NCBI RefSeq assembly: GCF_014635185.1 | Contig: NZ_BMCM01000001.1 | Span: 1,272,166 to 1,336,165 of the forward strand | Reading direction: 5' to 3' | DNA from: Microbacterium murale | GTDB lineage: Bacteria > Actinomycetota > Actinomycetes > Actinomycetales > Microbacteriaceae | DNA: 64,000 nt | The notes under the pieces: generated by a model | Seen by the model: only the letters and a program-made list of their open reading frames with translations | What the model was told of the DNA's origin: nothing | Databases searched by the model: none | Shown: one piece after another, positions 1,728 to 36,512 of the stretch | Numbering within the stretch: the stretch's first letter is position 1 | Layout: each line of letters opens with the position of its first letter | Translations under genes and position numbers: made by a program

Positions 1728-2114
1728 ATGGGCGGACGTGTGAGCATCGAACTGCCCGGCTTCGGGCACGCGAACCCCATTCCGGCGGCGAGCCGCATCG
1801 GGCCGTTCCTCGCGTCGGGCGCGCTCACCGGGCGCGACCCGCAGACCCGCGAGATGCCGGAAGGGCTCGACGAGCAGTGCGCGAATGTGTTCCAGCACAT
1901 CCGTGCGCTGATGGATGCCGCGGGCGGATCGACCGACGACATCCTCAAACTCACGATCCACCTGACGACGTATCGCGATCGTGATGCGCTGAACCGTGAG
2001 TGGTCGGCGATGTTCCCCGACCCGGCCTCCCGGCCCGCGCGCCAGGTGCTGGCCGCCGAGCTCGACGGCGGCGCACTCGTCCACGCCGATGTGCTGGCGG
2101 TGCTCAGCGGCTGA
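1728..2114 (+). CDS. RidA family protein (YjgF/YER057c/UK114)
   Basis: Small 128-aa Rid-family protein. Characterised RidA members hydrolyse reactive 2-aminoacrylate and other enamines or imines. The arginine-containing motif RPARQVL near the C-terminus matches the substrate-carboxylate arginine region of active Rid proteins. An AAGGAGG Shine-Dalgarno sequence lies just before the ATG at 1728. The gene begins 36 bp after the ABC ATPase on the same strand, so it may be the last gene of that operon; Rid proteins often accompany amino-acid or peptide catabolism. The subfamily (RidA versus Rid2-7) is not resolved by eye. Confidence 0.85.
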   Translation: MGGRVSIELPGFGHANPIPAASRIGPFLASGALTGRDPQTREMPEGLDEQCANVFQHIRALMDAAGGSTDDILKLTIHLTTYRDRDALNREWSAMFPDPASRPARQVLAAELDGGALVHADVLAVLSG

Positions 2115-2125
2115 GCTGAGCCGGC

Positions 2126-2797
2126 TCAGCCCTCGCGGCGCCTGACGATCTCGCCGATCCAGCTCGGCGCGAACGGCGAGGTGCAGCCAGGCGCTGTCGG
2201 GTAGTCGGCCAGCACCTGCAGGCGTTCGCCGATCTCCAGCGCACGTGCACGCAGGTGCGGGTGATAGATGCCGATCTGCGCGAGTGTTTCGTTCATCGTC
2301 CATTGCGGACGCGTGGGGGCGTCCTTCATATCGCGCTCGATCCGGTCGAGCAGATCTTCGAGATCGAGGCCCTCCGGCTTCTTCGCGACGCGTTCGCTCG
2401 TCAGCGACCACGCGGCCGCGGCGACCGTCGGATCCGCGTCGTCGAACCACCGCACGCGCATCTCCTCGGCGAGTGGCGACTTCTTCGCGATGTAGCTCAC
2501 GAACCACTCGTTGACCTTCGGCGGGCGTGTCTCGCGCAGCATCGCATCCAACTCATCCGCGGAGAACTCCCGCGGCTTGCAGATCAGCAGCGCGAGCAGG
2601 CGCGGCGCGGTCTCACCCGTCGACCACAGCTCCTTCGCCAGGGCATGATTCGTCTTGACCTGCTTCGCGAGCCCGCGCATCTTCGACAGGTTGATGCCGT
2701 GGTCGTCGCCGCGCTTCTCGTTCGCGGACCGCATCTTCGGGTCTTCGAGCGCGGCGAGCTCGGAGAGCACGTCAGGGACGGTCATCGTGGCGGTCAT
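2126..2797 (-). CDS. DNA alkylation repair protein (AlkD-like HEAT-repeat family)
   Basis: A 223-aa all-helical protein that matches the DNA alkylation repair family, whose members excise bulky or cationic alkylated bases such as 3-methyladenine and 7-methylguanine. Recognisable features are the N-terminal GINLSKMRGLAKQV segment, repeated helical hairpins containing WFVSYIAKKSPLAEEM, and DADPTVAAAAWSLTSE, which is typical of the HEAT-like repeats. It is transcribed towards the RidA gene, with 11 bp between the two stops. Upstream, towards the FUSC gene, lies a long inverted repeat. Some family members lack glycosylase activity, so activity is inferred only from family. Confidence 0.8.
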   Translation of the reverse strand: MTATMTVPDVLSELAALEDPKMRSANEKRGDDHGINLSKMRGLAKQVKTNHALAKELWSTGETAPRLLALLICKPREFSADELDAMLRETRPPKVNEWFVSYIAKKSPLAEEMRVRWFDDADPTVAAAAWSLTSERVAKKPEGLDLEDLLDRIERDMKDAPTRPQWTMNETLAQIGIYHPHLRARALEIGERLQVLADYPTAPGCTSPFAPSWIGEIVRRREG

Positions 2798-2822
2798 GAT
2801 CCCAGCCTACGACCGGCTGTCG

Positions 2823-2912
2823 CGAGTACACCTGTCGGCCGAGATCACAGATGTCGGCTCGGATCGGCCATTTCGGCCGACATCCGTGACAATCCACCGA
2901 CGGGTGTACTCG
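2823..2912. repeat. Long intergenic inverted repeat between the FUSC and AlkD-like genes
   Basis: Outer arms 2823-2838 and 2897-2912 pair at 15 of 16 positions (CGAGTACACC against GGTGTACTCG). Inner arms ending at 2858 and starting at 2876 pair perfectly over at least 8 bp (ATGTCGGC/GCCGACAT). It lies between two minus-strand genes, after the FUSC stop and before the AlkD-like start. It could act as a terminator for FUSC, although no U-run follows the stem. Confidence 0.75.
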
Positions 2913-2924
2913 GGCGCCGGGTCG

Positions 2925-3968
2925 TCAATCCTCCCCGACGAGTTCGTCGCGGATACGGCGCAGGTCTTCCATGAGTGAGCCGATCAGGATCCAATGACCT
3001 GATGCCGGCGGCTTCACCCGCAGCGGAGCTGTCAGCGCCGGGATGGCCGATGTCTCCGCGGAAGGCTCAGGTGCGACGTCGGCGACCTGCACTGCAAGGC
3101 GCACATCATGGCCGGCGCGGCGAAGCTGCTCAGCGATCGCGTGCACGGTCGGTTCGTCGGCGAGGGTGTCGTCATAGTGGTCGAAGTACGCCCGCGTCAT
3201 CCCGATCACCTGCGTGACGATCGGAGACAGCTTCTCGAGGAGGGCTCGCATCTCCACGAGGTCACCGCGTTGGGATCGGCGTGGGTTGAGCGTCAGCGCC
3301 TCCTCACCTGCGGAGATGGATGCTTCGGCTGCGATCAGCATCGGCCGCAGCAGTCGCGCTTCCACCATCAGCCCCTGAAGCTGCGCTGGGGTCTGCGCAG
3401 TGGGCAGCGCCGAGGCCAGCCGGTCGAGACTGGCGGCGATCTCCGCGCCGAGCAGCCCCAGGTCGCGCCGCGCGGGGGCGGTGAGCACCGGTGGCACGAT
3501 CAGGGCGTTGACGATGATGCCGATCGCGACGCCGATCAGGGTCTCGACGATGCGGTCCAGGGCGTATTGAGGGCTGGATGATCCGAGCGCGAGGACGAGC
3601 ATCGCCGAGATCGCGACCTGGTTCCCCATGCCAGGAGTGGCGCGGAAGACCCATGCCACCAGCATCGCCACCACGATCGCGAGCAGAACGACCCAGCTCT
3701 GCGGACCCAACAGCAGGCTGAGGCCCGTCGCGATAACGACGCCGACGATCACGCCGAGGCTGCGCTCGATCGCCTTTGCGAACGACTGGTTCACACTCGG
3801 GAGCACCACCAGCAGGGCGGCGATCGCGGCGAACACAGGCAGCGGTCCTGGCACCAGCCACCCGGCGATCAGCCATGCGCCGATCGTCGCCACCGCCGAC
3901 TTCACGACCTGCAGTAGAGGTGCGCGTTTCGCGCTGCGCACCGCCGATGTCATCCGCATGTTCCCCAC
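2925..3968 (-). CDS. FUSC family membrane protein (aromatic-acid exporter type)
   Basis: A 347-aa integral membrane protein with about six hydrophobic helices in the first 160 residues, such as AAIAALLVVLPSVNQSFAKA and GVAIGIIVNALIVPP. A soluble helical region of about 170 residues follows. This half-size arrangement matches FUSC/ArAE-like proteins, which are proposed effluxers of small organic acids. The start is uncertain: GTG at 3968, with in-frame ATGs at 3959 and 3953. It is divergent from the siderophore operon, with an IdeR-type box between them. The substrate is unknown. Confidence 0.75.
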   Translation of the reverse strand: MGNMRMTSAVRSAKRAPLLQVVKSAVATIGAWLIAGWLVPGPLPVFAAIAALLVVLPSVNQSFAKAIERSLGVIVGVVIATGLSLLLGPQSWVVLLAIVVAMLVAWVFRATPGMGNQVAISAMLVLALGSSSPQYALDRIVETLIGVAIGIIVNALIVPPVLTAPARRDLGLLGAEIAASLDRLASALPTAQTPAQLQGLMVEARLLRPMLIAAEASISAGEEALTLNPRRSQRGDLVEMRALLEKLSPIVTQVIGMTRAYFDHYDDTLADEPTVHAIAEQLRRAGHDVRLAVQVADVAPEPSAETSAIPALTAPLRVKPPASGHWILIGSLMEDLRRIRDELVGED

Positions 3969-4025
3969 GTTAGCCCTGGGCGATATCGGCCGAACCGTAT
4001 GAGGCCAGCCTAACTCTCTGATAAA

Positions 4026-4094: not shown

Positions 4095-5177
4095 GTGCGC
4101 ATCTCTCGTATTCTCGGCATCGGTGCGGTCGCAGTCATGGCAGTCGGCCTTGCCGCCTGCGCGACCCCCGCACCTTCCGACAGTTCGGACTCCGACTCCC
4201 TGATCGGCACGAACCCGGCATCCGCCGACGCGTTCCCGGTCACCGTGGAGCACTTCTTCGGAGAGACCACGATCAGCGAGAAGCCCGATCGCATCGCGAC
4301 CGTCAACTGGGCCAATCACGAGGTCCCGCTCGCCCTCGGCGTCGTGCCGGTCGGAATGAGCAAGGTCGCCTGGGGGGACGACGACGACAACGGCGTGCTC
4401 CCGTGGGTCGAGGACAAGCTCGATGAACTCGGCATCGATGTGTCGCTGATGGGTGACAAGGATGCAGAGAAGGCGGGCGAGGTGCCGGTGCTGTTCGACG
4501 AGGCCGACGGCATCGACTTCGAAGCCGTCGCCGACACGAGCCCCGACGTCATCCTCGCTTCGTACTCCGGCCTCACGCAGGAGGACTACGACACCCTCTC
4601 CAAGATCGCACCTGTCGTCGCGTACCCCGAGGTCGCATGGGGCACCTCGGTGCAGGACATGATCACGCTGAACTCCGAGGCGATCGGACTCGCCGACGAG
4701 GGCGAGGCACTGATCGAGGATCTGGATGCCCAGACGCAGGCGGCACTCGACGCGCACCCCGCGCTGAAGGACGCGAAGCTGCTCTTCAGCTACATCGACC
4801 CGAACGACCTCAGCCAGGTCGGCTACTACACGCGCATCGACACCCGCCCCGGCTTCCTGCTCGAACTCGGTCTGCCGGAGCCGCAGGTCGTCGCGGACAA
4901 CGCCGACAGCACCGACTTCTACCTGATGGTCAGCGCGGAAGAGGTCGAGAAGTTCGACGACGTCGACGTGTTCATCACCTACGGCGACGAGTCGATCATC
5001 CCGCTGCTGCAGGCCGATCCCCTGCTAGGTAAGATCCCCGCGATCGCCGCCGGCAACATCGCGATCCTTCCCGACGCGTCTCCGATGGCGAACTCCGCGA
5101 ACCCGTCGCCGCTCTCGATTCCGTGGGGCATCGACGACTACTTCGCGATTCTCGAAGCACCGCTGCTCGACGAGTGA
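4095..5177 (+). CDS. Iron-siderophore ABC transporter substrate-binding lipoprotein
   Basis: A 360-aa periplasmic-binding-type lipoprotein that captures ferric siderophore at the cell surface. It has an N-terminal signal with lipobox GLAAC (Cys at residue 22), then the FecB/FhuD-like core beginning VTVEHFFGETTISEKPDRIATV. It contains a long rigid helix region and ends NPSPLSIPWGIDDY. The GTG start at 4095 is supported by a purine-rich GAAAGGGAAA upstream. The stop overlaps the GTG of the first permease (GTGA at 5174-5177). The IdeR box upstream predicts expression under iron limitation. The siderophore cannot be deduced and no siderophore biosynthesis genes are nearby. Confidence 0.9.
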   Translation: MRISRILGIGAVAVMAVGLAACATPAPSDSSDSDSLIGTNPASADAFPVTVEHFFGETTISEKPDRIATVNWANHEVPLALGVVPVGMSKVAWGDDDDNGVLPWVEDKLDELGIDVSLMGDKDAEKAGEVPVLFDEADGIDFEAVADTSPDVILASYSGLTQEDYDTLSKIAPVVAYPEVAWGTSVQDMITLNSEAIGLADEGEALIEDLDAQTQAALDAHPALKDAKLLFSYIDPNDLSQVGYYTRIDTRPGFLLELGLPEPQVVADNADSTDFYLMVSAEEVEKFDDVDVFITYGDESIIPLLQADPLLGKIPAIAAGNIAILPDASPMANSANPSPLSIPWGIDDYFAILEAPLLDE

Positions 5178-28935: not shown

Positions 28936-29607
28936 TCAGAGCACCAGCCGGTAGCCCATTCCCGACTCGGTCAGCAGATGCGCAGGCTCAGCGGGCGACG
29001 CCTCGAGCTTCTTGCGCAGCTGCGACATGTACAGCCGCAGGTAGCCGGAGTCGGACACCTGCTCGCTGCCCCAGATCCCCTTCAGCAGGTCCTGGCGGGT
29101 GACGAGGGCGCCTGGGTTGCGGGCGAGGTGCTCCAGCATCCGCCACTCGGTCGGAGTCAGGTGCACCCTGGCGCCGGAGCGGGTCACGGCTTTGGCGGCC
29201 AGGTCGATCACGACGTCGCCGAAGCGCACGGTCGACTCGCCGGTCGCGGGCGCAGCGCGGCGCGACAACGCCCGCAGCCGCGCGAGCAACTCATCGACCT
29301 GGAAGGGTTTCGTGACGAAGTCGTCCGCGCCGGCGTCGAGGGCCTCCACCTTGTCCGCCGAGCCGGTGCGACCGGAGACCACGATGATGGGCGCCGTCGT
29401 CCAGCCGCGCAGGGCATGGATCACCTCGATGCCGTCGAGTCTGGGCATCCCGAGATCGAGAAGGATGATGTCAGGGTGGGTCTGCGCGGCGGCGGCGATC
29501 GCGGCGGCACCGTCTGCGGCCGCCACGATGTCGTAGCCGTGCGCCGCAAGGGTGATCCGGAGTGCGCGCACCATCTGCGGATCGTCGTCGGCGATGAGCA
29601 GCTTCAC
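28936..29607 (-). CDS. kdpE: Response regulator KdpE
   Basis: A 223-aa OmpR/PhoB-type response regulator. The receiver domain has the acidic triad at Asp7-Asp9, phospho-acceptor Asp51 in LLDLGMP and Lys in VTKPF. The winged-helix DNA-binding domain spans about residues 125-223 (LTPTEWRMLEHLARNPGALV). The DLLKGIWG and SGYLRLYMSQLRKKLE signatures are those of KdpE. It overlaps the kinase gene by 4 bp. It is predicted to control potassium uptake genes; no kdpFABC is in the window, and the nearby kimA-like gene carries the same upstream repeat as this operon. Confidence 0.88.
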   Translation of the reverse strand: MKLLIADDDPQMVRALRITLAAHGYDIVAAADGAAAIAAAAQTHPDIILLDLGMPRLDGIEVIHALRGWTTAPIIVVSGRTGSADKVEALDAGADDFVTKPFQVDELLARLRALSRRAAPATGESTVRFGDVVIDLAAKAVTRSGARVHLTPTEWRMLEHLARNPGALVTRQDLLKGIWGSEQVSDSGYLRLYMSQLRKKLEASPAEPAHLLTESGMGYRLVL

Positions 29608-31094
29608 TCCGCCTCCTGGATGTCGGACTCGCCAGCGGCCAGCGGCAGGGAGATGACCATCGTGAGGCCGCCACCGGGGGTGTCCTCCGGAGTCAGGCTA
29701 CCGCCCATCCCCTCCGTGAAGCCCTTCGAGAGGGCGAGTCCCAGGCCGAGTCCGGTCGTGTTGTCGGTGTCGCCGTAGCGCTGGAACGGCTGGAAGATGC
29801 TGCTCTGGCGTTCAGTTGGCACGCCCTCGCCGCGATCGATGATGCGGATCTCGGCCCGCTCTCCCACGAGGTGCGCTGCGACAGTGACACGACTGCCTTC
29901 AGGTGAATGCGCGAGCGCATTCGCGAGCAGATTCACGAGAACCCTCTGCAGCAGCACCGGATCAGCATGCAGCCCCGGAAGGTCCGGATCCAGGGCGAGT
30001 GCGACGTCATCCGGACCGAGACGAAGTTCGTCGAGCGCGGACAGGATGCTGGCTTCCGCGTCGACTCGGGTGGCCGAGACAGCGAGCACTCCCGCTTGCA
30101 CTCTGCTGACATCCAGCAGGTCGGTGATCAGCCTGGACAGCGTCGACAGACTCTCGTCGGCGGTGGCCAGTAGTTCTTCACGATCGGGTTCCGAGAGCCC
30201 ATGCACTCCGCGCAGCCCGCCGATGGCGGCGACGGCTGCGGAGAGCGGACGACGAAGATCGTGACTGAGTGCGGACAGCAGAGCGCTGCGCACTCGGTCG
30301 GTCTCCGCGAGTGTCTTCGCCTCGCCGGCGGTGGCGCTGAGGTCGGTGTGTTCGATCGCGGCAGACAGTTGTGCCACGATCACCTCGACCAATCGACGTG
30401 ACGGTGCATCGAGCGGTCCGCCGTGCAGTTCCAGGAAGGCACGTGGGCCACTGCCCGAGCTCCATCCGACCGGAATCGTGGTCTCTCGGCCATCGCGGAC
30501 AGGTTCACCATCGCGGGCGAGGACCTCGCCGTCAGCGCCGACGAGCCGTACGCCGCTCAATCCGAACGCCTCGCGGGTGCGGGTGATGAGTGCGAGCACG
30601 GCGCTATCGCCGCGGAGCACGTTGCCGGCGACGGAGACGAGCAGCTCAGCCTCCGCCGTGGCGCGGCGGGCGGCGCGAGCGCGGTTGGCGGCCTGGACGA
30701 CGATGAGCCCCACCAGCACCGCGATGATCACGTACAGCGCGAGAGCGACGATATGAAGCGGGTGGTCGATCGCGATCGTGAACACAGGGGCCACGAACAG
30801 CAGATCGAGTGTGACTCCGGAGAGCACCGCCGTGAACACAGCGGGCCGCAGCCCGCCGATGATCGCGACGACGACAACCAGAAGCTGAAATGACAGCACC
30901 TCGTAAGTGATCGACTCCTGGCTGCGCAGGGCGAACAACAGCCATGAGAGAAGGGGTCCCGCGATGACGGCAGTGGCGAATCCGGCGACCTCGCGCCGCC
31001 AGCCGAGGGCGCCGGTACCGAGGCCGCTGGATCGGGGACTCGGCAGTGGCACGCCCGTCGAGGCGGCGGTGTCCGGCATCCGTTCAGCGCTCAT
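29604..31094 (-). CDS. kdpD: Sensor histidine kinase KdpD, short form lacking the N-terminal KdpD and Usp domains
   Basis: A 496-aa membrane kinase. After about 35 residues it enters the DUF4118 four-helix membrane domain (about 35-145). A GAF-like region follows (RTREAFGLSGVRLVGADGEV), then HisKA with the phospho-accepting His in LSHDLRRPLS, and the ATPase domain with LVNLLANALAHSPEGS, DRGEGVP and GLGLGLALSKGF. Full-length KdpD is about 850-900 aa; here the cytoplasmic KdpD/universal-stress sensor part is missing and there is no open frame upstream to supply it. Signal input must therefore go through the membrane or GAF regions. Confidence 0.85.
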   Translation of the reverse strand: MSAERMPDTAASTGVPLPSPRSSGLGTGALGWRREVAGFATAVIAGPLLSWLLFALRSQESITYEVLSFQLLVVVVAIIGGLRPAVFTAVLSGVTLDLLFVAPVFTIAIDHPLHIVALALYVIIAVLVGLIVVQAANRARAARRATAEAELLVSVAGNVLRGDSAVLALITRTREAFGLSGVRLVGADGEVLARDGEPVRDGRETTIPVGWSSGSGPRAFLELHGGPLDAPSRRLVEVIVAQLSAAIEHTDLSATAGEAKTLAETDRVRSALLSALSHDLRRPLSAAVAAIGGLRGVHGLSEPDREELLATADESLSTLSRLITDLLDVSRVQAGVLAVSATRVDAEASILSALDELRLGPDDVALALDPDLPGLHADPVLLQRVLVNLLANALAHSPEGSRVTVAAHLVGERAEIRIIDRGEGVPTERQSSIFQPFQRYGDTDNTTGLGLGLALSKGFTEGMGGSLTPEDTPGGGLTMVISLPLAAGESDIQEAE

Positions 31095-31196
31095 GATCCT
31101 CCGTTCCCTGCATCCTCTGCTTCCGGGATCGGCCGGATCTCGGAGGAATCGAGCAGCCAGGGAACGACATTACGCGCAAACGCAGCGCAGGCGCGG

Positions 31197-31250
31197 AATC
31201 CTCACGCAATCCATACGGACCGGCGCTGAACGCTCGCGGAATGCTTACGA
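31197..31250 (-). promoter_or_regulatory. Candidate KdpE box upstream of kdpDE: two abutting 11-bp repeats plus a third
   Basis: Read on the plus strand, AATCCTCACGC (31197-31207) is followed without a gap by AATCCATACGG (31208-31218). A third copy, AATGCTTACGA, is at 31240-31250. The same 11-mer pattern is repeated five times upstream of the kimA-like gene. Head-to-tail 11-bp repeats are the usual binding architecture of OmpR/PhoB-type regulators. Confidence 0.65.
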
Positions 31251-31259
31251 CTGCATGGG

Positions 31260-31853
31260 TCAGGATGCCGCGGGCCATTCTTCCGCGAGGAGTCCGTAGT
31301 TCATCCCGTCCATCCATTCACCCGAGCGATGCAGGGCGGTCTTGCGGCTGAACTCCTCACGGCGCATCCCGATGCGCTCCATCAGCCGCCACGACGGTTC
31401 GTTGTCGGCGAAGCATCCGGCATGCACGCGGTACAGGCCCAGTGAGCCGAAGCACACGTCGATCGCGGCTCTGACCGCCTCGGTGGCGTAACCGCGCCCG
31501 GCGAAAGCCGGGTCGAGAGCCCAGCCGAGTTCGGCCTGCACGCCCTTGGCTTCGTCCGCGACCTCAAGCTGCGCCCACGCGTCCTGGATGCGCACCATGA
31601 GGTCGCCGATCACCGTCCGTTCAGTGTCGGACGTCGGCAGCAGCTCGATCACGAAGGTCGCGGAGAGACGGTCGGGTTCGAGGTAGCGCTCGCGGAAATC
31701 CTCGAGGGTGGTCGGCGCGACACCGAGCCAACGGTTGACCTCGGGGAGCCGGCGGAACTCCCAGAGCGCTTCGAGATCATCCGGTGAGCAGGCCCGGATC
31801 TCGACTCGCGAGGTGCGGATCGGCCATGGATCGCTGCGCTGCGGATCGGTCAT
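31260..31853 (-). CDS. GNAT family N-acetyltransferase (RimJ-like)
   Basis: A 197-aa acetyltransferase similar to the RimJ/RimL group that acetylates protein N-termini or small amines using acetyl-CoA. The central ELGWALDPAFAGRGYATEAVRAAI stretch holds the acetyl-CoA pyrophosphate loop (GRGYAT), followed by LYRVHAGCFADNEPSWRLMERIGM. ATG at 31853 was chosen; the frame runs on upstream to 32696 only as a shadow of the HNH gene. The substrate is unknown. The kdpD promoter lies directly downstream of its stop. Confidence 0.85.
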   Translation of the reverse strand: MTDPQRSDPWPIRTSRVEIRACSPDDLEALWEFRRLPEVNRWLGVAPTTLEDFRERYLEPDRLSATFVIELLPTSDTERTVIGDLMVRIQDAWAQLEVADEAKGVQAELGWALDPAFAGRGYATEAVRAAIDVCFGSLGLYRVHAGCFADNEPSWRLMERIGMRREEFSRKTALHRSGEWMDGMNYGLLAEEWPAAS

Positions 31854-31967
31854 CGTTCCAGCGTAGATCCAACGCGAATGGAAAAGCAGGAAGATTGTTC
31901 GGAATAGTTGTCTGATCAGCCTGAAAAGCGGGGTGGAATGTCTGTGGCCCGGTGTTGAATGGGTGGT

Positions 31968-33461
31968 ATGAACAGCATCGTTGCTCGGCTTCGGGAACTC
32001 GAGGAGTCCCTCGATTCCGTGGCGCGTGATGCGTTCGGTGCGGAGGTGATCCCGGGGTTGTCGGATGTGGATGCTGCGGAGCTGCTTGCCGTGTCGGGTC
32101 GGATCCAACGACGGGTGGAAGGCCTGCAGGTCGAGGCCACCGTGCAGGTCTGCGACCGCTCCGCCGGGGTGAAGGACGAACGGATGACGACCCGGTACGG
32201 GTGCTCCAAGCCCGCGGATCTCGTGCGGATACTGACCGGCACGGACACGCGGGGTGCCACCCGGCTGGTCCGGGCGGCACGCCTGGTGCGCCGGGATGTC
32301 GGGATCACGGACGGGGTGTTCCTTCCGGCCCGGTATCAGGCGCTGCGCGAGGTGATGGTCGAGGGCGGCCTGGGGCTGGCGGGGTTGTTGGCCGCGACAG
32401 ATCCGATCGAGCAGTCCGCCCGCCGCATCACCGATCAGAACCGGGTCGAGGCCGACCGGCAACTCGCGGACTTCGCCCGCGGCATCGACGCCGGCGCGGA
32501 CGACGAGGCGCCGCGTCCGATCCCGTTGCCGGAAGACCTGGGGATGCTCGCTCGGGTGATGGTCGCGTATCTGGACCCGGATGGTGCGGAACCGGCCGAA
32601 GAGGCCGCGATGCGCGGACGATACTTCTCGATCGGGAAGGTCAAGGACGGCGCCTCCCCGGTACGCGGCAGCCTCCTCCCCGAAGTGGCCGCGCAACTGA
32701 GTCTGCTGATCGACAGCCTCCTGAACCCGAAAGTGAACGGGGCGGAGGACCCGGAGAACGACGACGAGTCATGCAGCGCAGGATCAGACGGTGGCGCGTC
32801 AACAGGTGGCGGTGTGCGGTTCGAGCCGTCAGTTGAGCGTGACGACGCAGCCGCTGACGGCCCCGTCTTCACGGACACCCGCACGCGCGGGCAGAAGATG
32901 CACGATGCGCTGGCGGCGATCCTGAACACTGCGGCCCGCACCGACTTGTTCCCGCACCTCGGTGGTGCCGCGCCGACGCTCACCGTCGCGGCGACCGCGG
33001 CGGATCTTGCGGCGGGGCACGGGTGGGCGCAGATCGGGCACACCGGTGACCTGGTCCCGTTGTCTGCGGCGCTGCAGACCGGGTGCGCGGGCGGGATTCA
33101 ACGGATCCTGTTCGATGACCGGGGCCGGATCGTATCGATCGGCACCAGTGGTCGGATCTTCAACGCCCTGCAACGCCGCGCGATCACCATCCGTGACGGC
33201 GGGTGTGTGATCCCGGGGTGCACGATCCCCGCGACCTGGTGCGAGGTGCATCACGTGCAAGAACACGCAGCCAGCGGCCCGACGCATACCGACAACGGGG
33301 TGCTGCTGTGCTGGTGGCATCACCGGACCCTGCACCTGACCGAGTGGGTGATCCGGATGAACCACGGCGTGCCCGAAGTTCGCGGCCCCGCCTGGTGGGA
33401 CCCCCACCAGCACTGGCACCCCACCCGAAGCCCACACCAACGACAACCCGCACCCGGATAA
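31968..33461 (+). CDS. DUF222-HNH endonuclease family protein
   Basis: A 497-aa protein of the large actinobacterial DUF222-HNH family (13E12-repeat-like). The N-terminal helical DUF222 region covers about residues 1-330. The C-terminal HNH motif contains GCVIPGCTIPATWCEVHHV and then NGVLLCWWHHRTLH, with metal-binding cysteines and histidines intact. ATG at 31968 is preferred to the ATG nine bases upstream. Family members are often multicopy and scattered in actinobacterial genomes; their biological role is unknown. The upstream 114 bp are noticeably AT-richer than the neighbourhood. A six-unit 15-bp tandem repeat begins at its stop codon. Confidence 0.85.
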   Translation: MNSIVARLRELEESLDSVARDAFGAEVIPGLSDVDAAELLAVSGRIQRRVEGLQVEATVQVCDRSAGVKDERMTTRYGCSKPADLVRILTGTDTRGATRLVRAARLVRRDVGITDGVFLPARYQALREVMVEGGLGLAGLLAATDPIEQSARRITDQNRVEADRQLADFARGIDAGADDEAPRPIPLPEDLGMLARVMVAYLDPDGAEPAEEAAMRGRYFSIGKVKDGASPVRGSLLPEVAAQLSLLIDSLLNPKVNGAEDPENDDESCSAGSDGGASTGGGVRFEPSVERDDAAADGPVFTDTRTRGQKMHDALAAILNTAARTDLFPHLGGAAPTLTVAATAADLAAGHGWAQIGHTGDLVPLSAALQTGCAGGIQRILFDDRGRIVSIGTSGRIFNALQRRAITIRDGGCVIPGCTIPATWCEVHHVQEHAASGPTHTDNGVLLCWWHHRTLHLTEWVIRMNHGVPEVRGPAWWDPHQHWHPTRSPHQRQPAPG

Positions 33462-33550
33462 GAAACCCGGGCGCGAGAATCCCGGGCGTGAGAATCCCGG
33501 GCGTGAGAAACCCGGGCGTGAGAAACCCGGGCGTGAGAATCCCGGGGCGA
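33461..33550. repeat. Six tandem copies of a 15-bp CCCGGG-containing repeat
   Basis: Units AGAAACCCGGGCGCG, AGAATCCCGGGCGTG (twice), AGAAACCCGGGCGTG (twice) and AGAATCCCGGGGCGA run without gaps. The first base is the last base of the HNH stop codon. Each unit contains the palindrome CCCGGG. Another short direct duplication (AGCTCTC twice) follows at about 33553-33567, next to the kimA-like stop. Confidence 0.9.
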
Positions 33551-33565: not shown

Positions 33566-35656
33566 TCAGTCCTCGGCCGGCGGCCCGGCGGGTCGGTGCG
33601 CACGGCGTCCGGTGGTGGAGGTGAGGACCGGACGACCCGCGCGCTCCTGCCCAGGAACCGGCCGCGACCGCCGCCCGTAGATCAGCTCGGACGAGTCGAG
33701 CAACCACGGCACCAGCGTGATCGAGACGCCGTGCACGAGCATCAGCTGGTTGGCCATGCGGCGCGCGCGTCGGTTGTGCAGGAAGCTCTCCCACCAGTGG
33801 CCGACGATGTACTGCGGCAGGTAGACCGTGACGACCGAGGCGCCGTGCTTCTGCCGGTACTGCTTGATGAACTGCGCGACCGGCTGAGCGAATGACCGGT
33901 AGGGCGATTCCACGATGACCAGCGGAATCGGGATGCGGTGCTCGGCCCACTCCTGCTGCAGGTGCTCCGCATCATCGTCGGCGACCGCGATGTGCACGGC
34001 CAGTGTCTGCCCGTGCTTCGCGGCGATCGCATAGTCGATGGCCTTGATGACCGGCTTCTGCAGCTTGCTGACCAGCACGAGTGCCACGTCTCCGCTCGCG
34101 CCGAAGTGCGTCGTGTCATCGACCGCGATCTCATGCTCGACATCGCGGTAATAGCGCTTCACGCCCATCATGAGGAAGGCGAGGATCGGGATCGCGAAGA
34201 ACACCAGGTACGCGCCGTGCGTGAACTTCGTGATCGTCACGATGAGCAGGACCAGGATCGTGAGGGTTGCGCCGGCCGAGTTGATGATCAGGCCGATCCG
34301 TGCTGACCGGCGATCGGATGCCGCGGCATCGTCGACCGCGACGTCGACATCCGCCTTTCCTGAGGCCGTCGTCCGCAGGACCCGCCGCCAGTGCCGCACC
34401 ATCCCGATCTGGCCGAGCGAGAACGACACGAAGACGCCGATGATGTACAGCTGGATGAGTGTCGTCAGACGCGCCTGGAACACCACCAGCACGGCGATCG
34501 CGGCGATGCCCAGCAGGATCATCCCGTTCGAGAAGACGAGCCGGTCGCCGCGCGTGTTCAGCGCCTTCGGCGCGTAGCCGTCGCGGGCGAGTACGGAACC
34601 GAGCAGCGGGAAGCCGTTGAACGCGGTGTTCGCCGCGAGCAGCAGCACACAGGCCGTGGCGGCCTGCACGATGAAGAACAGGATGCTGCCGCCACCGAAC
34701 GTCGCCGCCGCGATCTGCGCCATCAGGCTCGGCTGCGGGTTCGAGCAGTCGAAGCCGATCAGATCGCACGGATTCTCGGCGTAGTGCACACCGGTGATGA
34801 GTGCGAGGGCGGTGAGACCGGCGAACAGGCAGATCGCGATGGAACCCATCAGCACCAGCGTCGCCTGCGCGTTGCGCACCTTCGGCGTACGGAATGCGGG
34901 TACTCCGTTGGAGACCGCCTCGACGCCGGTGAGGGCGGAGCATCCGCTGGAGAACGCGCGGAGCACCAGAAGGATGACGGCCGCCTGACTGAGATCCTCG
35001 GAGTGCACGGCGAACTCGGCGCTCGACGCCACCGGGGCGTTCCCGAGGAACGTCTGGATGAGACCCGTGACGATCATGAATCCGACGGATGCGATGAATA
35101 CATAGGTCGGGATCGCGAAAACCGTCGACGCCTCACGTACGCCGCGCAGGTTGACGATGATGATGAGGATGACGAAGCCGACCGCGAGCTCGACGCGCCA
35201 GGCGTTCAGCCCGGGGACGGCGGAGATGATGTTGTCGACGCCGGATGCCACCGACACAGCGACTGTGAGCACGTAGTCGACCAGCAGCGCAGCGGCGACC
35301 ACCACACCGGGGATCTCGCCCAGGTTCTTCGACGCGACCTCGTAGTCGCCGCCGCCGGAGGGGTACGCCTTGATGAGCTGCCGGTAGCTGAGCACCACGA
35401 CGATCAGCAGCACGATGACCGACACCGCGACCAGCGGCGTGAAGGACAGGAAGGTGAGCCCGCCGATCAGCAGGATCATCACGAGTTCCTGCGGCGCGTA
35501 GGCCACTGAGCTCAGCGCATCCGACGCGAAGATCGGCAGTGCCATCCGCTTGGGCAGCAGTTGGTCGTCGACCTGCTTCGAGGTGAGCGGGTCGCCGAGG
35601 AGGATGCGTTTCGCGAGCGGCGGAGCATCCGGAAGTGCGCGCGTTTCTTCTGTCAC
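33566..35656 (-). CDS. kimA: KimA-like potassium importer (APC superfamily)
   Basis: A 696-aa membrane protein with about 12 helices in the first 480 residues and a cytosolic C-terminal domain of about 200 residues. Family landmarks are ALPIFASDALSSVAYAPQEL, LSYRQLIKAYPSGGGDYEVA and LLVDYVLTVAVSVASGVDNI, which follow the Bacillus KimA (YdaO) pattern closely. KimA is a proton-coupled potassium importer, inhibited by c-di-AMP in Bacillus. No ydaO riboswitch is visible upstream; instead five phased 11-bp repeats shared with the kdpDE promoter suggest KdpE control. Amino-acid transport by this APC member is less likely. Confidence 0.82.
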   Translation of the reverse strand: MTEETRALPDAPPLAKRILLGDPLTSKQVDDQLLPKRMALPIFASDALSSVAYAPQELVMILLIGGLTFLSFTPLVAVSVIVLLIVVVLSYRQLIKAYPSGGGDYEVASKNLGEIPGVVVAAALLVDYVLTVAVSVASGVDNIISAVPGLNAWRVELAVGFVILIIIVNLRGVREASTVFAIPTYVFIASVGFMIVTGLIQTFLGNAPVASSAEFAVHSEDLSQAAVILLVLRAFSSGCSALTGVEAVSNGVPAFRTPKVRNAQATLVLMGSIAICLFAGLTALALITGVHYAENPCDLIGFDCSNPQPSLMAQIAAATFGGGSILFFIVQAATACVLLLAANTAFNGFPLLGSVLARDGYAPKALNTRGDRLVFSNGMILLGIAAIAVLVVFQARLTTLIQLYIIGVFVSFSLGQIGMVRHWRRVLRTTASGKADVDVAVDDAAASDRRSARIGLIINSAGATLTILVLLIVTITKFTHGAYLVFFAIPILAFLMMGVKRYYRDVEHEIAVDDTTHFGASGDVALVLVSKLQKPVIKAIDYAIAAKHGQTLAVHIAVADDDAEHLQQEWAEHRIPIPLVIVESPYRSFAQPVAQFIKQYRQKHGASVVTVYLPQYIVGHWWESFLHNRRARRMANQLMLVHGVSITLVPWLLDSSELIYGRRSRPVPGQERAGRPVLTSTTGRRAHRPAGPPAED

Positions 35657-35683
35657 GATGCGTGACGCTACGCCGTTTCACGC

Positions 35684-35748
35684 CGTCCTCACGGGATCCT
35701 TACGGAATCCCTACGCCCGAACCTGCCACCCATACGAAATCCTCATGC
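35684..35748 (-). promoter_or_regulatory. Candidate KdpE box upstream of kimA: five phased 11-bp repeats
   Basis: On the plus strand CGTCCTCACGG (35684-35694), GATCCTTACGG (35695-35705) and AATCCCTACGC (35706-35716) abut exactly. After 10 bp, CACCCATACGA (35727-35737) and AATCCTCATGC (35738-35748) abut again. All repeats therefore lie on nearly the same helical face. The array is 28-92 bp upstream of the kimA-like start and shares its motif with the kdpDE upstream region. Confidence 0.7.
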
Positions 35749-35813: not shown

Positions 35814-36512
35814 ATGACGACCATCGAGGTCAGCGAAGACGATATCCGCCAGACCCGCGAGCTCCGTGACGAATTCCAGAAGTTCCTGCGCGAGTACGAG
35901 TTCGGGATGCGAGAGGTCGAGACGAAGATCTCGATTCTGCGGGACGAGTTCCTGCACGATCACGCGTACAACCCCATCGAGCACGTGAAGAGCCGGATCA
36001 AGACTCCGGACAGCATCGTCGAGAAGATCGCCCGCAAGGGGATCGAGGAGCCCGACTTCGAGCGCATCCGCGACGAGATCACCGACATCGCCGGCGTTCG
36101 CGTGACCTGCAGTTTCGTCGCCGATGTGTACCAGCTCTTCGACCTGCTCACCCAGCAGGACGACATCACGGTGCGGGCCGTGAAGGACTACATCAAGAAC
36201 CCGAAGCCCAACGGGTACAAGAGCCTGCACGTCATCATCGAGGTGCCGGTGTTCCTGTCGACCGGGCCGCTCCTGGTGCCCGTCGAGGTGCAGTTCCGCA
36301 CGATCGCGATGGACTTCTGGGCGAGCCTCGAGCACAAGATCTACTACAAGTTCTCCAACCAGGTGCCGTCACATCTCGTCGACAGCCTGTCAGACGCTGC
36401 GGATGCCGCGGCAGAGCTCGATGCTCGCATGGAGCGGCTGCATCGCGAGGCGCACGGCGTGCCGCAGCGTCAGCTGGACCCGCCGCCCCCGCCTCGCGTC
36501 GTCGAGGTGTAG
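35814..36512 (+). CDS. Small alarmone synthetase (RelQ/YjbM-type GTP pyrophosphokinase)
   Basis: A 232-aa single-domain (p)ppGpp synthetase without hydrolase, TGS or ACT domains. Synthetase motifs are intact: DEITDIAGVRVTCSFVADVY, the G-loop region NPKPNGYKSLHVIIEVPV and PVEVQFRTIAMDFWASLEHK. Enzymes of this class transfer pyrophosphate from ATP to GTP or GDP and are usually regulated by transcription. It is divergent from the kimA-like gene with 157 bp between starts, so their promoters share the region with the phased repeats. The C-terminal PPPPPRVVEV tail is unusual but short. Confidence 0.9.
   Translation: MTTIEVSEDDIRQTRELRDEFQKFLREYEFGMREVETKISILRDEFLHDHAYNPIEHVKSRIKTPDSIVEKIARKGIEEPDFERIRDEITDIAGVRVTCSFVADVYQLFDLLTQQDDITVRAVKDYIKNPKPNGYKSLHVIIEVPVFLSTGPLLVPVEVQFRTIAMDFWASLEHKIYYKFSNQVPSHLVDSLSDAADAAAELDARMERLHREAHGVPQRQLDPPPPPRVVEV

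Follow-up and report, generated by a model that had tools for sequence, protein, structure and literature searches.

Two promoters of Microbacterium murale, one ahead of a gene for a KimA-type potassium transporter and the other ahead of the two-component genes kdpDE, carry the same tandem 11-bp repeats, and a tandem box of this kind recurs upstream of the pump genes kdpFABC across the genus. We consider it probable that the repeats form a KdpE operator through which kimA and kdpDE are activated at low potassium, and that this regulon contracted after the pump was lost. Phosphorylated KdpE would bind the repeats head to tail beside the -10 element and bring in RNA polymerase where a -35 element would otherwise do so, and the histidine kinase of KdpD, sensing low potassium, would thus switch on kimA and kdpDE. 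In the ancestor the operator would have governed kdpFABCDE together with kimA (and, in some relatives, ktrBA); the M. murale lineage would then have lost kdpFABC and the N-terminal part of KdpD, leaving the kdpF promoter to drive a histidine-kinase-only KdpD and KdpE, with kimA as the one remaining transporter target found in M. murale. We propose that kimA, as a KdpE target, kept KdpDE useful after the pump had gone, and that the serine-kinase domain of KdpD was lost because the disappearance of KdpB left it without a client. Binding by KdpE, activation, low potassium as the signal and the order of cause and effect among the losses are read here from comparisons of sequence.

Nine 11-mers were found in the window (the whole 64,000-nucleotide stretch that was analysed), in four exactly abutting groups at 35684-35716, 35727-35748, 31197-31218 and 31229-31250, all on the plus strand and thus antisense to kimA and kdpDE. 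The promoter-proximal group at kimA is a run of three, CGTCCTCACGG (35684-35694), GATCCTTACGG (35695-35705) and AATCCCTACGC (35706-35716), and the distal one is a pair, CACCCATACGA (35727-35737) and AATCCTCATGC (35738-35748). At kdpDE the proximal pair consists of AATCCTCACGC (31197-31207) and AATCCATACGG (31208-31218), and the weaker distal pair of AACGCTCGCGG (31229-31239), which matches at 7 of 11 positions, and AATGCTTACGA (31240-31250). An earlier first-pass annotation of this DNA had reported five 11-mers 28-92 bp upstream of kimA (GTG at 35656), in runs of three and two, and two abutting copies plus a third upstream of kdpDE (31197-31218 and 31240-31250). All of these coordinates were verified, and the ninth copy, AACGCTCGCGG, absent from that list, abuts the third kdpDE copy and so completes a second pair, at 32 bp from the other. 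The two promoters thus have a common layout of two abutting pairs whose starts lie 32 bp, or about three helical turns, apart; the kimA pairs with this spacing start at 35695 and 35727. A search of both strands of the window with the two-repeat consensus gave eight 22-mers with at least 15 of 22 matches; five of them, the top three included, fall within these promoters.

Across the 3,897,570 bases of the M. murale genome, the two-repeat pattern of 22 bp, allowed three mismatches at most, matched three times, always at the kimA and kdpDE promoters, while the same pattern read backwards as a control matched nowhere. A 19-bp core with up to two mismatches gave four matches, three of them at these promoters (control, none); at three mismatches this core lost its discrimination, with 15 matches (again three at these promoters) versus seven for the control. 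Equal frequency in unrelated intergenic regions, which the first-pass annotation had named as evidence that would count against a KdpE box, is thus not what the genome displays, its matches being almost confined to kimA and kdpDE. A larger KdpE regulon in this genome was unsupported by the box searches at two mismatches. The fourth match to the core (C2:242977) recurs unchanged in three relatives (G096, G099 and G147) and adjoins oligopeptide-type ABC transporter genes.

The presumed regulator, encoded by kdpE (28936..29607, minus strand), is a response regulator of 223 amino acids with Response_reg and Trans_reg_C domains above their cut-offs. Its nearest solved structures are those of KdpE (4kny, E 7.3e-60; 4kfc, 5.4e-59), with MtrA behind at 2.2e-46. 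The NCBIfam KdpE model is its best family, yet the score of 226.7 bits is below the cut-off of 325, and we therefore call the protein KdpE-type, filing it by its position and its DNA-contact residues. The residues R193, R200 and T215, given as DNA contacts of Escherichia coli KdpE in the excerpted text of PMC3264566, have conserved equivalents in the M. murale protein (alignment to 4kny, with positions counted by hand at an offset of 2).

To place the box in the genus, we searched 149 Microbacterium genomes with the KimA and KdpD of the window and with the Pfam KdpA model, and fetched 100 regions. The box consensus came from the kimA and kdpDE repeats themselves, with no training on kdp promoters. 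Within 420 bp ahead of kdpA, a 22-mer with at least 15 of 22 matches in the expected (antisense) orientation is present at 61 of 64 loci; among 5000 pieces of 420 bp drawn at random from these loci, true sites included, 78 reach that score. This regular placement ahead of kdpA makes the tandem box most likely the operator of KdpE.

OmpR/PhoB-family regulators bind head-to-tail 11-bp repeats, so that repeats of this period would also suit a different member of the family (e.g. MtrA, PhoP or RegX3) that controls potassium genes, and the failure of our KdpE to reach the NCBIfam cut-off is in keeping with that idea. We regard it as improbable, because the box accompanies kdpFABC in nearly all loci as well as kimA and some ktrB promoters, and because it is almost absent from the rest of the M. 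murale genome, unlike the sites of a global regulator. That none of the nine kimA promoters in genomes without KdpD is boxed points the same way, but this absence is insignificant once kinship is counted: the association of no KdpD with no box was unsupported by kinship pairs (7 pairs, 0.3 in the same direction and 6.7 without difference, p 1).

At kimA the distribution of the box is patchier. We examined 81 kimA regions, from M. murale and from 80 of the 120 other matching genomes of the genus (some of the 120 matches being distant paralogues). Their upstream scores are bimodal, with 35 genomes at 15 or more and the other 46 at 13 or less; in a random sample of 20000 pieces of 130 bp, true sites included, 80 score at least 15. 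The conservation upstream of orthologous kimA genes that the first-pass annotation had looked for is therefore real in 35 of the 81 examined genomes and missing from the rest, i.e. it holds for part of the genus only. Among the 61 examined genomes that keep both kdpA and KdpD, 25 have the kimA box and 36 do not, so the link to kimA is not general.

The product of the kimA gene (33566..35656, minus strand; 696 amino acids) is, by homology, a KimA-type potassium transporter of the APC family, for which potassium uptake is predicted: it matches the KimA structure 6s3k over residues 16-650 (E 6.4e-115) and the Pfam family AA_permease_2. The named records closest by KimA are of Microbacterium species, M. 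murale's own record possibly being excluded. A putative -10 element, TAGCGT (35665..35670, minus strand), lies 13 nt downstream of the operator, and since the GTG start follows 8 nt past it, the mRNA is probably leaderless. A GTANNNT -10 can be placed 5-12 nt before the GTG or ATG in all 81 kimA promoters. A sigma-70-like TTG, 15-19 nt from this -10, is present in 44 of the 46 box-negative promoters versus 1 of the 35 box-positive ones (Fisher p 3e-19, kinship ignored), the commonest -35 of the former being TTGCGC at 17 nt. The sole box-positive promoter with a TTG (G141, by eye) has the weakest box, with a score of 15, at 64 bp. At kimA the operator thus occupies the place of the -35 element. 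Activators of the PhoB type with a class II layout replace the -35 contacts, and the kimA layout is as expected of such an activator, a role that KdpE would fill here. The best pair lies 38 bp (14 genomes) or 49 bp (13) from the kimA start in 27 of the 35 boxed genomes, positions one 11-bp register apart. In six kimA promoters (L055, L059, L060, L065, L074 and L083), an inverted second box adjoins the -10 and faces the first.

Divergent from kimA is the gene for a small RelA/SpoT-type alarmone synthetase (35814..36512, plus strand), and the box between the two could in principle control that gene, or both. The synthetase gene starts 66 bp from the last repeat and has its own TAACGT -10. This reading is very improbable on the evidence of the relatives, where the synthetase is close to boxed kimA only in some. 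The box is held at its two preferred distances from kimA, and in box-negative kimA promoters it is the -35 that takes its place. Moreover, the box persists in G128 and G021, whose synthetase genes lie at distances of about 0.6 or 1.2 kb, and in G005, where none is found within 4 kb upstream. Because the box tracks kimA even where the synthetase is distant or not found within that range, we rejected box control of the synthetase. Control of kimA by a c-di-AMP riboswitch was rejected as well: with stricter filters, RF00379 was found in none of 59 genomes of the genus (M. murale included), while 2 of 14 control genomes were positive. On the other side of kimA, a DUF222/HNH gene (31959-33461) lies between it and a GNAT acetyltransferase gene, with short GGGCGTGAGAA(T/A)CCC repeats past its 3' end (33460-33550).

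The box is also found in 5 of the 30 ktrB loci examined, a count in which one locus that ends close to the gene and is poorly scorable (L271, from G023) is taken as unboxed. In these five, a TrkH/KtrB-KtrA pair has the box 29-76 bp upstream (L262 of G096, 1862-4021; L261 of G014, 4279-4400; L270; L280; L289), so that in some Microbacterium the reach of KdpE may extend to potassium importers of a third type. For the boxed ktrB of G096, no close orthologue was found in the M. murale genome, where the best match is 39%. In G069 (L047, 10322-16006), kimA, a short kdpD, kdpE and ktrB follow one another on one strand behind the kimA box, and a full kdpABC-DE is present elsewhere in the genome.

Neither kdpA (Pfam KdpA model) nor the serine-kinase domain PF02702 was found in the M. 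murale genome. Its nearest relative, G096 (KimA 96% identical), has the order GNAT-box-kdpFABC-kdpD(846 aa)-kdpE, whereas the order in M. murale is GNAT-box-kdpD(496 aa)-kdpE. The GNAT gene (31260..31853, minus strand) flanks the kdp promoter in both genomes and marks the deletion. The proximal pair of 11-mers corresponds in alignment to the box that precedes kdpFABC in G096, and the distal pair has a partner there at the same spacing (by eye); since box, distal partner and spacing are all alignable, the promoter ahead of kdpDE is, judged by this alignment, the old kdpF promoter, left in place when kdpFABC and the 5' end of kdpD were lost. Its putative -10, TAATGT (31167..31172, minus strand), is one 11-bp register farther from the box than at kimA. 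The short KdpD (29604..31094, minus strand; 496 amino acids) retains DUF4118, HisKA and HATPase_c and aligns from residue 373 of the KdpD of G096; without the first approximately 372 codons it has neither the serine-kinase domain with its Walker A and B motifs nor the Usp domain, which occupies residues 238-353 in G096.

These comparisons change what the repeats say about regulation. The first-pass annotation had proposed that KdpE controls itself and KimA rather than kdpFABC, a rewiring of potassium control. The tandem box common to kimA and kdpDE is in keeping with the first half of that proposal; the contrast with kdpFABC falls away in a genome without kdpA. Nor does rewiring describe the case, because the kdpDE box was inherited from kdpF and 25 of the 61 genomes with kdpA and KdpD also box kimA: an existing regulon contracted, and no new connection was made here.

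Could the short KdpD instead be a decaying remnant and the box a useless leftover? The loss of its N-terminal part would suit this, as would a dN/dS of 0.15 against G096, which exceeds the 0.05-0.08 of four compared pairs of full-length KdpDs. A ratio so far below 1 nonetheless indicates purifying selection on the truncated protein, and its reading frame, HisKA and HATPase_c are intact; KdpE is 96% identical to that of G096, the truncated state involves at least seven changes on the KimA tree, and 12 of 13 truncated kdpDE stand behind their own box or close behind a boxed kimA (see below). Decay is thus a highly unlikely account. The retained part of KdpD is more diverged from G096 (dS 0.92, 79% amino acid identity) than its neighbours KimA, KdpE, the synthetase and GNAT (dS 0.31-0.60), which may reflect relaxed constraint or partial replacement by recombination.

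Across the genus, loss of the serine-kinase domain goes with loss of the pump. Among 114 genomes with the KdpD kinase part, PF02702 is present in all 102 with kdpA versus 3 of the 12 without it, pump absence being scored genome-wide by KdpA alone and KdpB being looked for in the fetched loci. The three that keep the domain are G106, G123 (88% complete) and G132 (72% complete). Of these, G106 (L087), which is 99% complete, has no kdpA match, a full KdpD with Walker motifs and a boxed kimA, and is an apparent intermediate. Two candidates for a truncated KdpD beside kdpA, G138 (L119) and G019 (L120), were rejected because both KdpD parts are present in different frames, split perhaps by a sequencing error or a frameshift, and were counted as having PF02702. 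All 65 long KdpD N-termini match the Walker A string and 56 of them the Walker B string.

By parsimony on the KimA tree, a stand-in for the species tree built by a quick method, the loss of the KdpD domain requires at least seven changes. The association with pump loss on this tree gave seven independent pairs, of which on average 5.8 run in the same direction and none in the opposite one (median p 0.031, range 0.031-0.0625, with about six informative pairs); G123 was left out of this test and of the three-pair test of KdpD retention given below. Four further loci (L139, L157, L163 and L212) were also left out of both, and their inclusion, in a tree for which their lack of kdpA was assumed, gave ten pairs with 6.9 in the same direction and none in the opposite one (p 0.016); that larger tree also served the pair tests of the box against KdpD absence and against kdpA loss.

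The association agrees with a role of KdpB as the client that keeps the serine-kinase domain in place, a role left unproven because a single deletion can remove pump and domain together. Indeed, the shortening of KdpD might be a plain by-product of large deletions running from kdpF into kdpD, with client loss playing no part, and in M. murale one deletion would explain both losses. We regard this as possible though unlikely, as the truncated proteins do not share one end: most align from residue 367-374 and one (L157) from 351, while those of G017, G095 and L163 align from 230-236 and so lost the serine-kinase domain yet keep the Usp region (Pfam-confirmed in G017). The breakpoints and new neighbours also vary between lineages, and the domain is present in every one of the 102 genomes that have both kdpA and KdpD. 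The KdpD of G057 has an additional internal gap, and that of L212 is alike in its best segment. Deletion and client loss are compatible in any case, since survival of a domain-removing deletion may depend on the pump having gone too.

Where the pump is missing, retention of KdpD goes with the kimA box. All 10 boxed genomes among the 20 kdpA-less genomes examined keep KdpD, and 9 of the 10 unboxed ones have no KdpD match, the exception being the incomplete G123 (Fisher p 1e-4 with kinship ignored; by kinship three pairs, all the same way, p 0.25). That kdpA loss in itself goes with presence of the box was unsupported by kinship pairs (10 pairs, 2.8 in the same direction, median p 0.25). The pump-less kdpDE stand behind their own box in M. 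murale, G014, G068, G017 and G095, and close behind a boxed kimA in G147, G099, L157, L163, G057 and L212, to which G069 (kdpA elsewhere) may be added; neither arrangement is found in G010, which has a short kdpD, or in G106. We lean towards a reading in which KdpDE can outlive KdpFABC where KimA took the KdpE operator for its -35, and in which KdpD, once without the pump, has time and again dropped the serine-kinase domain and been left as a potassium switch with the histidine kinase alone.

Outside the genus, in a sample of 150 genomes of the family, the pump-less KdpD state was not clearly found. The KdpD kinase part is present in 80 of these genomes and kdpA in 78 of the 80, the only two with KdpD and no kdpA being M. 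murale itself and G192, a genome of 90% completeness in which PF02702 is present. Among the 78 with kdpA, PF02702 is near-complete in 77, and G245 has only part of it (residues 1-110, in one copy at a contig end).

Comparison with known systems, made here from excerpts of the cited papers, shows which parts of this arrangement are familiar. The KdpDE-kdpFABC system of E. coli (PMC3264566; for the KdpE regulon, PMC7657598) likewise combines an OmpR-family KdpE with two direct half-sites of 11-bp period upstream of kdpFABC, and its KdpD is, as in M. murale, a kinase with a DUF4118 membrane part. The E. coli half-sites, TTTATA-N5-TTTACA, are 6 bp long with a 5-bp gap (PMC3264566) and by eye have only a TTAC core and the 11-bp period in common with the Microbacterium box, whose half-sites are richer in GC. 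Unlike E. coli, Microbacterium boxes kimA (in some relatives ktrBA) as well, and M. murale lacks kdpA and the serine-kinase and Usp domains of KdpD. According to excerpts of PMC2714519, several truncated forms of the E. coli protein still react to low potassium but fail to repress at higher potassium, and by analogy kimA in M. murale may be controlled more leakily.

Among the actinobacteria, the KdpE of Mycobacterium smegmatis has a footprint of 18 bp at the kdpF promoter (PMC5401905), so that an actinobacterial KdpE binds this promoter there, as is predicted for the kdpF box here. The footprint sequence and the proposed promoter type are unlike those of Microbacterium, and the excerpts of that paper mention no KimA target; the box is thus not to be assumed for all actinobacteria. 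The KimA of Bacillus subtilis belongs to the same transporter family and is under a c-di-AMP riboswitch (excerpts of PMC11018627), in place of which we infer a KdpE operator here. Whether KdpE extends to further potassium importers was also the question in Sinorhizobium fredii, whose KdpE, in the excerpted part of PMC9239096, does not bind the trkA and kup promoters, whereas in Microbacterium boxes occur at kimA and some ktrB.

The closest precedent for domain loss is the work of Silberberg and colleagues (2024; PMC11018627, in excerpt), who identified by biochemistry a serine kinase in residues 1-230 of KdpD, which phosphorylates and inhibits KdpB. In their survey of species annotated with the pump, KdpD forms that lack the histidine kinase are found chiefly in the absence of KdpE, so that in those tandem serine-histidine proteins, as here, domain loss follows function. 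Microbacterium presents the mirror image, the serine-kinase domain being missing where the pump is missing, and because that survey was limited to species with an annotated pump, the pump-less class lay outside it. In the open-access subset of PubMed Central, screened by titles and the starts of abstracts and with most of the subscription literature outside it, we found neither KdpE control of kimA nor an N-terminally shortened KdpD in pump-less species. The new observations are that KdpD retention in kdpA-less genomes goes with the kimA box, and that pump-less KdpD is usually without its serine-kinase domain.

A circuit that outlives its pump, sheds the brake in its sensor and apparently drives another importer suggests how regulation is pared down and kept. 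If the proposal is right, these species are a natural experiment indicating KdpB as the client that maintains the KdpD serine-kinase domain, and they outline how, in evolution, a sensor comes to shed a post-translational arm. Pump-less species with KdpDE would also supply the control missing from the 2024 serine-kinase work, as far as its excerpts go (PMC11018627), and a single genus gives several cases. At the kimA promoters, the clean swap of -35 and operator at a fixed -10 makes gain and loss of regulation comparable between near relatives.

Outside kimA, kdp and ktrB, a few box-like sites were seen in the relatives. In G005 (L263, 968-4019) such a site precedes a gene for an Mrp-type cation antiporter subunit by 75 bp, oriented the other way from the kimA box. 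Others occur in G011 and G065, by a DUF6421 gene and inside or by a GntR-type gene, and in G057.
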